Assembly: GCA_027623315.1 (NCBI GenBank)
Contig: JAQBYD010000004.1
Span: 62,001-126,000 of the forward strand
Source of the DNA: Verrucomicrobiota bacterium
GTDB taxonomy: Bacteria; Verrucomicrobiota; Kiritimatiellia; CAJWTS01
Direction of reading: 5' to 3'
Length of the DNA stretch: 64,000 nucleotides
The notes under the pieces were generated by a model. The model was not told the DNA's origin, searched no databases, and saw only the letters and a list, made by a program, of their open reading frames with translations. Shown in pieces: positions 7,462 to 11,759 of the stretch. A program made the position numbers and the translations under genes. Position 1 is the stretch's first letter, and each line of letters starts with the position of its first letter.

Positions 7462-7760
7462 ACCCCGGTAGCTCATCTGGACAGAGCGACAGATTCCTAA
7501 GGTAACTTGGGCTCCGCGGAGGAAACTCCACGGATGAAGGCAGTCAAATTCAGGGAAACCTACGTCCGATTCGGATACGGCAATCCTGAGCCAAGTCCCG
7601 GCCCTAACGGTGCCGGGGAAGGTGCAGAGACTAGACGGCTGCTGCCTAAGTCCCGGCCAGCACACGGCCCGGATACGGTGAAGGGATAGTCCACGGAGGC
7701 TGGAGACAGCCACAAACGTGAATCTGTAGGTAGTGGGTTCGAGTCCCGCCCGGGGTACCA
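7462..7760 (+). tRNA. tRNA-Arg(CCU) interrupted by a group I intron; CCA encoded
   Basis: Exons 7462-7498 and 7721-7760: acceptor ACCCCGG/CCGGGGT, D-arm GCTC..GAGC, anticodon stem ACAGA/TCTGT with loop TTCCTAA, T-arm GTGGG TTCGAGT CCCGC. Confidence 0.93.
7499..7720 (+). other. Group I intron (small, tRNA type, probably IC3), ~222 nt, no internal ORF
   Basis: 5' exon ends in U, intron ends in G; conserved blocks GTCAAATTC..GGAAACCTA, CCTGAGCCAAG, GGTGCAGAGACTAGACGG, GGTGAAGGGATAGTCC, GGAG..ACAAACGTG. Confidence 0.93.
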
Positions 7761-7820
7761 GCCTTCGCTCCCTACGGGAGCTACGGCCGGCACGGCCAAC
7801 CCAAAGCTCCGCATTGTGGA

Positions 7821-7949
7821 TGGCAGGTCCGGCGGCGCGAGTGGTACAAGCGAAATGGGCTTGCCGACAGACTGGTGGAGACCGACGAGCTAGGCGGCTT
7901 CAACGCGAAGAAGATCCAGAGTCTGATCGAGGAGCGCATTCTGCCATGA
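7821..7949 (+). pseudogene. 3' fragment of an unidentified gene upstream of the hsdM remnant
   Basis: WQVRRREWYKRNGLADRLVETDELGGFNAKKIQSLIEERILP*, no start codon, ATGA overlap with the hsdM start. Confidence 0.45.
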
Positions 7950-8275
7950 GGTTGACACAACAGCAGCTCGAGGCGCATCTGTGGGGTGCGGCGAATATCC
8001 TGCGAGGGAAGACCGCCGGGCAGGACTACAAGAACTACATCCTGTCGCTGATGTTCTACAAACGGCTGTGCGATCAGTGGGAATGCGAGGCCGACGACGC
8101 GATCGCGGAGTTGGAGAAGCAGCAGGGCCGGGTTTTCACCGAGAAACAGCAAGCCGTCTTTCGCAAGCGCGGGGAACACCGCTTCAGCATTCCTGAGGGT
8201 TCGCGCTGGGGAGACCCTCCTTTCTGCAAATATCGAAGGCAAACGCTTTTGTTACGAAATGTCGGTAGATATTGA
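7946..8275 (+). pseudogene. hsdM: Truncated type I restriction-modification methyltransferase subunit (HsdM N-terminus only)
   Basis: MRLTQQQLEAHLWGAANILRGKTAGQDYKNYILSLMFYKRLCDQWE...HRFSIPEGSRWGD then loss of homology. Confidence 0.85.
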
Positions 8276-8297
8276 CAAGTCCCGACGTTTTGTAACA
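8250..8297. promoter_or_regulatory. Inverted-repeat operator candidate upstream of abiEi
   Basis: TGTTACGAAATGTCGG (8250-8265) and CCGACGTTTTGTAACA (8282-8297), with TTGACA at 8272 between the arms. Confidence 0.6.
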
Positions 8298-8307
8298 GGC
8301 TTGCCCC

Positions 8308-8910
8308 ATGCAATCGCAACAGAAACAGAGGGTTCTCCGCCTTGCTGAGCGGAAAGGCGTACTGAGACCGCGTGATCTCGACGAGTATGGAATTCCGAGG
8401 GTCTACCTCAGCCGGCTGTGTAAACAAGGCCTTCTCAATCGACGAGCGCGAGGCATTTACGGACTCGCTGATACAGACCTGGGACAGCATGAGACTCTAC
8501 TGCAAGCCTGCAAGCGGGTGCCACGCGGCGTGATATGTCTGCTGTCGGCCCTAAGCTTCCACTCTATTGGCACTCAGAACCCTCACGAGGTATGGCTTGC
8601 TGTTGAGCCCAAGGCCAGAAAGCCGAGAGTGGGGGATCTGCCACTGAAGATCGTCCGCTTCTCGGGGGATGCGTTCGTCAAGGGCGTCGATCGAGTCATT
8701 ATCGATGGCGTCGACGTACGGGTTTACGGTGTCGCGAAAACGGTAGCGGATTGCTTCAAGTATCGAAACAAGATCGGGCTGGATGTAGCGATGGAGGCAC
8801 TACGCGAAAGCAGGCGAATGAGACTGTGTACGATGGATGACCTCTGGTGCTTCGCGAAGATATGTCGAGTAGCTCGAGTTATGCAACCGTACCTGGAGTC
8901 TGTCGCATGA
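8308..8910 (+). CDS. abiEi: AbiEi-type antitoxin/transcriptional regulator
   Basis: RVLRLAERKGVLRPRDLDEYGIPRVYLSRLCKQGLLNRRARGIYGLAD wHTH N-terminus and VYGVAKTVADCFKYRNKIGLDVAMEALRE. Confidence 0.9.
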   Translation: MQSQQKQRVLRLAERKGVLRPRDLDEYGIPRVYLSRLCKQGLLNRRARGIYGLADTDLGQHETLLQACKRVPRGVICLLSALSFHSIGTQNPHEVWLAVEPKARKPRVGDLPLKIVRFSGDAFVKGVDRVIIDGVDVRVYGVAKTVADCFKYRNKIGLDVAMEALRESRRMRLCTMDDLWCFAKICRVARVMQPYLESVA

Positions 8911-9824
8911 GTCAGAAACGTGTTGTCGATCACGCGGCGTCTGTCCGCCAACGGCTGCTCAACCTGGCTAAAGACCGACAAGAGGATTTCAACTATGTTC
9001 TACAGCGATACGCGGTCGAGCGGTTGCTGTATCGGATAAGCGAGTCCGACCATGCTTCTCGATTTATACTGAAGGGAGCAGCCCTTTTCTGGATGTGGCG
9101 TCGTGAACACTATCGCCTCACCAAGGACGCCGACTTCTTGTTTTCCGGTCCGAGCGATCTTACCCGCATCAAGGACTGCTTCAAAGAGATCTGTGGTGTC
9201 GAGTCGACAGGGGACGGCTTGTCATTCGATGCGCATTCTGTGACGGCGGAGGAAATTCGGGAAGATAGCCTGTACGACGGCGTGAGAGTGAAGCTCACCG
9301 CCCATCTGGCGGGAGCAGTGATACGCACGCAGGTGGACTTGGGGTTCGGCGATGTTGTTACGCCTGGGGCCACAGAGGCGGAATACCCCACGCTACTCGA
9401 CCATCCACCGCCGCGACTGAGAATCTACCCACGGGAGACCGTGATCGCGGAAAAATATGAGGCTATGGTCAAGCTGGGCATCGCCAATACGCGCATGAAA
9501 GACTTCTATGACCTCTCTGTTCTTGCACGGGAGTTCGAGTTTGAAGGTGCCACTGTGATGGACGCGATTGGAGAGACCTTCCGAAGACGCGGCACCCAGC
9601 TTCCGGACACGGCACCGGTGGCCCTAACGCCTGAGTTTTACGAGAGCGATACCAAACAACGGCAGTGGGCTGCCTTTCTCGCAAGGAGCGCGGTGAAGTA
9701 TTCGGATGAACTGGCAGATGCCATCGCACTCATACGCGACTTCGTTTTGCCGGTCGTAGCTGCCGCAAGTGCAGGGGAGCCCTTCACGTCGGCCTGGCAC
9801 GATGGCGGACCATGGGCCGACTGA
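8907..9824 (+). CDS. abiEii: AbiEii-type nucleotidyltransferase toxin
   Basis: RLLYRISESDHASRFILKGAALFWMWRREHYRLTKDADFLF (G[GA] and DxD motifs) ... ETVIAEKYEAMVKLGIANTRMKDFYDLSVL; ATGA overlap with abiEi. Confidence 0.92.
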   Translation: MSQKRVVDHAASVRQRLLNLAKDRQEDFNYVLQRYAVERLLYRISESDHASRFILKGAALFWMWRREHYRLTKDADFLFSGPSDLTRIKDCFKEICGVESTGDGLSFDAHSVTAEEIREDSLYDGVRVKLTAHLAGAVIRTQVDLGFGDVVTPGATEAEYPTLLDHPPPRLRIYPRETVIAEKYEAMVKLGIANTRMKDFYDLSVLAREFEFEGATVMDAIGETFRRRGTQLPDTAPVALTPEFYESDTKQRQWAAFLARSAVKYSDELADAIALIRDFVLPVVAAASAGEPFTSAWHDGGPWAD

Positions 9825-9994
9825 ACCGCCGGGGAACCCGCGTTCGTTTCCGGTGAGTAGCACCAAGTCCGGTTCGTCGGGGTTCCCGCGGCCTTGGTTT
9901 CACGTCTACGGTCTCAACTACGTTGACTCATGTCGATTCGGGGTGACCCATGTTGAGAGCCTCAGAAAACTCTTCGTTTCTTGAATTTCTTGTC

Positions 9995-10038
9995 GATTCC
10001 TAATCTGTAGGTAGTGGGTTCGAGTCCTGCCCGGGGTA
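9995..10038 (+). repeat. Partial, intronless tRNA-Arg 3' copy (att-like direct repeat)
   Basis: GATTCCTAATCTGTAGGTAGTGGGTTCGAGTCCTGCCCGGGGTA matches spliced exon junction plus 3' half of 7462-7760 with one mismatch. Confidence 0.92.
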
Positions 10039-10331: not shown

Positions 10332-10547
10332 ATGCAGCCCATGAGCATATCGTCACAGATCAAGACGCTTCGCAAGGCTGCCGGCTTGACGCAGGCGCAG
10401 TTGGCCAGTCGTGCGGGTGTGGGATTGCGCTTTGTCCGCGAACTTGAGCAGGGCCGTCGCAACCCGAACGTCAAAAATGTGGACCAAGTGCTTTCCCTGT
10501 TCGGACATCACCTGGAAGCCGTGAGGGACCATGCCAAACCTGCGTAG
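10332..10547 (+). CDS. hipB: HipB-like XRE antitoxin
   Basis: MSISSQIKTLRKAAGLTQAQLASRAGVGLRFVRELEQGRRNPNVKNVDQVLSLFG. Confidence 0.88.
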   Translation: MQPMSISSQIKTLRKAAGLTQAQLASRAGVGLRFVRELEQGRRNPNVKNVDQVLSLFGHHLEAVRDHAKPA

Positions 10548-10854
10548 AGCCAACGTGTTGTTCAAGGGGCAACGGGCAGGCACGATTGAGGAGACGGAGT
10601 CAGGATACCGTTTCACATACGATCCAGGATTCGTGGACTACGGTCATTCGATTGCTGTATCGCTGCCGCTCCGGGCCGAGCCATTCGAGAGTGCCCGGTT
10701 GTTCCCATTCTTCGAGGGTCTCCTGCCCGAAGGCTGGTACAAAGAGATTGTTTGCCGGACGATCAAGGTTGATGAGGATGACAGCTTCGGGCTGTTGATA
10801 CACGCCTGTGCGGATTGCGTTGGCGCGGTATCCCTTGAAGGCGAATCATCGTGA
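10531..10854 (+). CDS. hipS: HipS, stand-alone HipA N-terminal domain protein
   Basis: ANVLFKGQRAGTIEETESGYRFTYDPGFVDYGHSIAVSLPLRAEPFESARLFPFFEGLLPEGW; overlaps hipB and hipT. Confidence 0.85.
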   Translation: MPNLRRANVLFKGQRAGTIEETESGYRFTYDPGFVDYGHSIAVSLPLRAEPFESARLFPFFEGLLPEGWYKEIVCRTIKVDEDDSFGLLIHACADCVGAVSLEGESS

Positions 10855-11759
10855 CACGATGCGATATGTGCGGTTTGACGGTCAAGGGCGCCACCACGCA
10901 TCACGCCGCATGCGCCCGCGCGTTGTTCGACAGCACGACGATTCCATCGATCGGGATGTCTCTACTTGATGTTGCAGCCGAAGCCCAGAAGATGGCAGGC
11001 AAGATGTCCATCTCGGGGGTTCAGCCCAAGCTTTCAATGACACGCCGAGGCCCGCACCTGGTCCCCGTCGAATCAGACGGTCGGTATATTCTGAAGCCTC
11101 AAACACAGGCGTTCCGGAATCTTCCCGAAAACGAGAACCTGTGCATGAACATCGCCGCTCAATCGGGCATTGAGGTCCCGCCGCACGGTCTGTTTGCCCT
11201 GGCGGATGGGTCCTGGGCCTACGTCATACGCCGGTTCGATCGCGCGCACGACGGGGAGAAACGGCGCTGTGAAGATTTCGTCCAAGTCCTGGGCAGAGAG
11301 AAGTATTCAGGCTCGCATGAGCAGCTCGGTGAGCGCCTGAGGGAACTCTCCGAGTTTCCCGGCCTCGATGCACAACTCTTCTTCGAGCGTGTGCTGTTTT
11401 CCTTCCTTGTGGGTAACGGCGATGCCCACCTCAAGAACTACTCCTTGCTCGGGACCGAGGACGGAACGCTGCGTCTGTCCCCCGCCTACGATATGGTCTG
11501 CTCGAGGCTCGTGATTCCCCGAGAGGATGACTGCGCGTTAAGCGTCAACGGCAAGAACAACAAGGTCCGCAGGAAAGATTTCCTGGCCCTGGCCGACAAC
11601 ATGGGAATCCCCGCCAAGGCGCAGGCCGGTATCATGGAGCGACTCCGTTCCACGCTGGCCATTGTCGAGAGTGACGTTCCCGGTTCCCGCCTCCCACCGC
11701 AGGACCAGGCAGACATGCTCGCGATCATCAGAGGCCGCTGGGCTCGAATCTACGGGTAG
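10851..11759 (+). CDS. hipT: HipT, HipA-like Ser/Thr kinase lacking the N-terminal subdomain
   Basis: KMSISGVQPKLSM (SIS motif), YILKPQ, LFSFLVGNGDAHLKNYSLL, LSPAYDMVCSRLV; GTG start overlapping hipS stop. Confidence 0.87.
   Translation: MTRCDMCGLTVKGATTHHAACARALFDSTTIPSIGMSLLDVAAEAQKMAGKMSISGVQPKLSMTRRGPHLVPVESDGRYILKPQTQAFRNLPENENLCMNIAAQSGIEVPPHGLFALADGSWAYVIRRFDRAHDGEKRRCEDFVQVLGREKYSGSHEQLGERLRELSEFPGLDAQLFFERVLFSFLVGNGDAHLKNYSLLGTEDGTLRLSPAYDMVCSRLVIPREDDCALSVNGKNNKVRRKDFLALADNMGIPAKAQAGIMERLRSTLAIVESDVPGSRLPPQDQADMLAIIRGRWARIYG

Follow-up and report, generated by a model that had tools for sequence, protein, structure and literature searches.

Group I introns of the tRNA-Arg(CCU) type were reportedly described in bacterial tRNA genes by Reinhold-Hurek and Shub in 1992. 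Bacterial tRNA group I introns have been reviewed (PMC3984707), and 2083 of the 3919 islands in Islander are centred on the anticodon of a tRNA gene (PMC4383910). In such anticodon-centred islands (Islander class A; the sublocations of Williams 2002), the tRNA is restored, a 3′ fragment is displaced and crossover falls in the anticodon loop. At the tRNA-Thr(GGU) locus of Caldiarchaeum subterraneum, an intron-bearing tRNA and a displaced intronless fragment flank foreign DNA (Sugahara et al. 2012, PMC3293823), an arrangement discussed there, after Randau and Soll, as protection against integration. That tRNA introns block integration is a proposal of Randau and Soll for Archaea that reviews have repeated, while thaumarchaeal elements occur in ten intron-containing tRNA genes (PMC6563490). 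An interaction between introns and integrases, which an earlier note on the present DNA had taken to be undescribed, is therefore a published idea for Archaea; in the open-licence literature we found no paper that links group I introns of bacteria to integration sites in tRNA genes. The locus described here, within a 64,000-nucleotide window (the whole stretch of DNA analysed), brings the two together: neither part is remarkable by itself, their pairing is unusual for bacteria, and the combination is probably new. It resembles the class A islands in its restored tRNA, displaced 3′ fragment and anticodon-loop crossover, but the integrase has been lost and the att core of the target gene is interrupted by a group I intron. 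With the Caldiarchaeum locus it shares an intron-bearing functional tRNA and a displaced intronless fragment around foreign DNA; there, however, an archaeal tRNA intron described as element-delivered accompanies a 5′ fragment, whereas here a self-splicing-type intron accompanies a 3′ fragment in a bacterium.

The functional gene was recovered by ARAGORN, with introns allowed, as tRNA-Arg(cct) i(38,222) at exactly 7462–7760 on the forward strand. Its 5′ exon (7462–7498) matches the spliced query at 100% and ends in ...ACAGATTCCT, and its 3′ exon (7721–7760) encodes CCA and carries the right arm of the att core (attL side), giving a spliced tRNA of 77 nt with CCA included. The default ARAGORN scan of the window missed this gene, and tRNA-Arg(CCU) may be listed as missing by automatic annotation. 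The 222-nt insertion that the earlier note had placed after the anticodon (7499–7720) was confirmed by covariance model as a group I intron, matching the full RF00028 model (positions 1–253) at 71.4 bits (E 3.8e-16; gathering score 50), and is the sole RF00028 match in the 3.9-Mb assembly of the window's genome. It begins directly 3′ of the anticodon, and its P1 helix can be written CCU/AAG-GUAA-CUUGGG, with CCUAAG pairing with CUUGGG and a U·G pair at the 5′ splice site (slash); the last base of the intron is G (...CGUG). The minimum free energy fold retained the acceptor, D, anticodon and T stems together with P1 (z −2.76), and the core motifs are similar to those of other bacterial tRNA introns; the intron is predicted to be self-splicing. 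A homing endonuclease gene would not fit in 222 nt. The earlier note had also proposed that the intron splits the att core, which holds for the right arm alone, displaced by 222 nt. The intron itself starts with AA, such that the seven-nucleotide loop TTCCTAA and the left arm persist at the 5′ junction, which reads GATTCCTAA and then GG.

The second copy, on the same strand 2.3 kb away (9995–10038), corresponds to positions 31–74 of the spliced tRNA, intronless and identical at 43 of 44 positions as had been read from the letters, the sole mismatch being C64 to T. It starts exactly at the core GATTCCTAATC (9995–10005), and identity ends sharply at GATT, the preceding base already differing between the copies. 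To the right of the intron, the two copies form a direct repeat of 37 bp with one mismatch. The chance expectation of a shared 33-mer in the window was 0.00 (100 shuffles), and a widespread repeat, the finding named in advance as contrary to an att origin, was ruled out by the single occurrence of the copy in the 3.9-Mb assembly. That the fragment is the attR scar of an old mobile element is well supported. The distal copy lacks CCA, which may reflect either decay or an element-derived 3′ half in the functional gene; CCA does not serve as a polarity marker because the tRNA genes of this genome are mixed in this respect (at least 21 of the 32 examined encode it), and the order of events is not settled by it. 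Elsewhere in the genome, another fragment resembling a tRNA 3′ half (L052 5871–5915; G000:C95:13870–13914, minus strand) begins with TTCCCAA and has no tRNA 5′ half ahead of it; it is possibly another anticodon-loop scar.

Between the repeats lie three genes, all on the forward strand. A truncated HsdM N-terminus of 109 aa (7946–8275; Pfam HsdM_N 4.3e-16) is a restriction–modification relic, its match to PADLOC MTase_I (3.2e-17) being restricted to the first ~80 profile positions. It is followed by an AbiEi antitoxin/regulator (8308–8910; PADLOC AbiEi 3.2e-83; Pfam AbiEi_4) and an AbiEii nucleotidyltransferase toxin (8907–9824; PADLOC AbiEii 4.8e-110; Pfam AbiEii 1.5e-44). This pair is like known AbiE type IV toxin–antitoxin systems in its adjacent AbiEi and AbiEii genes and strong model matches; there is nothing unusual in it, and we regard it as leftover relic cargo. 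No integrase was found between 7761 and 9994, and for this reason the 2.2-kb stretch is a relic and not an active island. The defense island of the earlier note is in this sense a 2.2-kb relic devoid of an integrase. Measured against the Islander definition, the locus has a tRNA gene and a same-orientation fragment at its ends and a crossover at a recognised subsite, the anticodon loop, but no tyrosine integrase inside.

Between the att scar and uvrB, positions 10341–11759 encode in succession a HipB-like HTH protein and the two parts of a split HipA (a HipBST-like arrangement), namely a short protein with the HipA N-terminal domain and another with the HipA C-terminal domain. In the sole genome of the same family (G001), uvrB and its downstream genes are conserved in order and the upstream genes differ; tRNA-Arg(CCU) is absent both from the uvrB locus and elsewhere in that assembly. 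No empty site is demonstrable because the upstream side of G001 differs and has no such tRNA. Homologues of the AbiEi/AbiEii pair (37–41% identical to those of the window) occur in a relative, G051 (L040 819–2404), just upstream of a tRNA-Arg(CCU) gene that also hosts an anticodon-loop island.

The class to which this genome belongs provides an opportunity to compare boundaries. A search of class genomes with the spliced tRNA recovered intact genes with no intron, joined in some genomes by partial copies spanning positions 31–77 or 1–41. Pattern matching with the intronless tRNA-Arg(CCU) sequence found it in 138 of 346 class genomes, and this search, together with further regions, added G440 (copy on contig C2) and G133, both with an adjacent integrase. 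In all, 3′-half copies lie beside a tyrosine integrase in six genomes (G051, G032, G440, G133, G158 and G092), with the fragment start equal or close to that of the window's copy (tRNA position 31) and the integrase beginning roughly 100–250 bp from the fragment. In G051, where the tRNA and its 3′ half are 6.4 kb apart (integrase gene at C8:59729–61147), and in G032, the 3′ half begins at GATTCCTAATC and is adjoined by an integrase of the Phage_integrase family (PF00589). The functional tRNA-Arg(CCU) genes of G051, G032, G440 and G133 are themselves intronless, and that of G440 differs little from the gene studied here. Two further genomes (G479 and G541) carry 3′ fragments with no integrase beside the fragment. 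In G021, the displaced copy is instead a 5′ half, which ends at GATTCCTAATC, and the integrase adjoins the restored tRNA.

Fragments of the 3′ type share with those of the 5′ type positions 31–41 alone, in the anticodon loop, where crossover by the integrases of this group therefore probably takes place. The core suggested as a crossover site from the window alone is thereby borne out at the level of sequence, with 3′ halves starting there beside tyrosine integrases and the 5′ half of G021 ending there. Using a profile built from four of the integrases at these loci (A1), we found family members in 90 of 193 class genomes and none in the window's genome at E ≤ 1e-25. Many A1 loci carry tRNA-Arg(CCU), tRNA-Arg(UCU) or, by appearance, other tRNA fragments, whose starts often fall within the stem or loop of the anticodon. 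In boundary and orientation, the fragment at 9995–10038 fits this class-wide integrase group. Separately, the integrase of the 5′-type locus in G021 (L043, contig C13) lies upstream of the restored gene, a related integrase lies on the 5′ side of the tRNA in G002 (L206, contig C60), and the two types within one integrase group have the palindromic anticodon core in common.

Among 57 relatives and 388 phylum genomes, an RF00028 match within a tRNA-Arg gene was found in the window's genome only, and no other genome examined in the class has an intron in any tRNA gene. In another class of the same phylum, group I introns occur in the anticodon loop of tRNA-Gln(UUG) in two genomes (L056 in G383; L058 in G186). 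Three further group I matches (L055, L057 and L059) fall outside any tRNA gene found; L055 and L059 are ~330-nt introns ~15 kb apart on one contig within the window's class (G364:C89), with no tRNA detected around them. A search of GTDB species genomes for the tRNA-Arg(CCU)-intron pattern returned ten true cases, all in alpha- or gammaproteobacteria and all with the same insertion point. The present intron is like these in its post-anticodon site, its length of ~220 nt, its lack of a homing endonuclease and the U·G pair of P1 at the 5′ splice site, and differs in its lineage outside the Proteobacteria, its absence from examined relatives and its identity to them of just 57–63%. Neither phage nor plasmid records contained a match to the intron or to the intron-bearing tRNA. 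In viral contigs, the intron pattern matched group I-like introns of phage (L183 and L185) as well as other sequences, and a tRNA accompanied none of them. The 5′ exons of L183 and L185 also end in TCCT, and their guide (TTGGG) is similar, the target bases being identical to those of the tRNA-Arg intron.

Taken together, we read the locus as the scar of an integration in the anticodon loop, at which an intron was later gained independently, with a probability of roughly two in three. An element with a tyrosine integrase would have entered a tRNA-Arg(CCU) gene then lacking the intron, by crossover between its attP and the loop TTCCTAA, the element's own 3′ half restoring the tRNA and the original 3′ half moving to 9995–10038. 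Because the element's own integrase is gone, the crossover point is taken from the fragments of relatives and is to that extent putative. The element would later have decayed, losing its integrase and leaving the HsdM fragment and the AbiE pair. Separately, the small group I intron would have settled between CCU and AA of the functional gene, perhaps by reverse splicing or recombination, its guide sequence GGG pairing with the anticodon CCU, and the distal fragment would have stayed intronless. The earlier note's order of island before intron may be retained as the simplest and most parsimonious, because the intron is absent from the rest of the examined class; the comparison of relatives thus placed the intron in this genome only, amid widespread intronless genes, but yielded no empty site. 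Both steps are known processes, and their succession agrees with the class distribution. That two parasites chose the same seven nucleotides would follow from the conservation of the loop and its palindromic flanks.

The element could alternatively have delivered the intron, with an attP carrying an intron-bearing 3′ half (GATTCCT-intron-AATC...). Since the intron begins with AA, GATTCCTAA is common to intron-bearing and intronless versions, and crossover within it would place the intron in the restored gene and displace the host's intronless 3′ half. Such delivery, the model proposed for the Caldiarchaeum tRNA-Thr (PMC3293823), predicts exactly the arrangement observed; it is also consistent with the intact loop and left arm at the 5′ intron junction, and the presence of CCA in the functional 3′ half but not in the displaced one suggests that their origins may differ. 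However, the related elements examined all lack an intron in the restored tRNA, an integrase would act poorly on an attP whose right arm is displaced, and the phage, plasmid and viral searches gave no such intron-tRNA, although absence of this kind is weak evidence. We therefore consider delivery unlikely. An intron-first order seems less probable still. Here, crossover between the intron-bearing gene and an element's intronless attP would have fallen in the T arm or at the 3′ end, to the right of the intron, and attP would be the source of the fragment's GATTCCT; the 37 bp common to both copies would allow this, crossover subsites in the T-loop and 3′ end exist (Islander, PMC4383910), and in Archaea intron-containing tRNA genes do receive integrating elements (PMC6563490). 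Yet the fragment boundary falls exactly at the class-wide anticodon core, whereas identity back to position 31 is not required for crossover in the T arm, and the intron was not found in the rest of the class. Crossover 5′ of the intron, between an intron-bearing attB and an intronless attP, would have produced the reverse of the observed arrangement, with the intron in the fragment and none in the functional gene. Partial duplication or a chance repeat, with no element involved, is very improbable: the copies are just 2.3 kb apart with no integrase between them, but this reading is contradicted by the negligible chance expectation, the recurrence in several relatives of this boundary with an integrase next to it, and the island-type genes between the copies.

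The earlier suggestion that the intron locks the island in place is not supported: the question is moot because no integrase is left in the element and no A1-family member was found in the genome at E ≤ 1e-25, and the imperfect 37-bp repeat still permits RecA deletion. As to shielding, no fragment of an intron-bearing tRNA-Arg(CCU) gene was found in the ten proteobacterial genomes, compared to verified 3′ fragments in 8 of ~138 intronless class genomes (~6%), a baseline that gives the comparison no power (Fisher p = 1.0). Intronless fragments were likewise lacking in nine of those ten genomes. The tenth, the alphaproteobacterial MAG KW1-S21_141 (G604), has both an intron-bearing tRNA-Arg(CCU) (L064) and an intact intronless one (L241), and its displaced fragment (L240) matches the intronless paralogue and adjoins a tyrosine integrase. 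This fits an integrase preference for the intronless gene, as one case from a possibly mixed MAG; the intron-bearing gene itself has a serine recombinase and a RepB-like gene in its neighbourhood. An intron–integrase interaction is thus a reasonable hypothesis, not a result. In its broader form, group I introns and anticodon-loop integrases would vie for the same seven nucleotides of bacterial tRNA genes or use them as a passage, the intron immunising the gene or being ferried between tRNA genes by att recombination, as may be supposed by analogy with suggestions for archaeal tRNA introns; we regard this as doubtful.

Overall, the locus is a bacterial counterpart of the archaeal case for interaction between tRNA introns and integrating elements, here with a self-splicing-type intron, in a class where the integrase family has many members. 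Competition of two parasites for one anticodon loop thereby becomes testable, both by comparison and at the bench. If the meeting of intron and integrase proves to be coincidence only, the locus would still illustrate how a displaced tRNA fragment preserves the form that its tRNA gene had when the element integrated.
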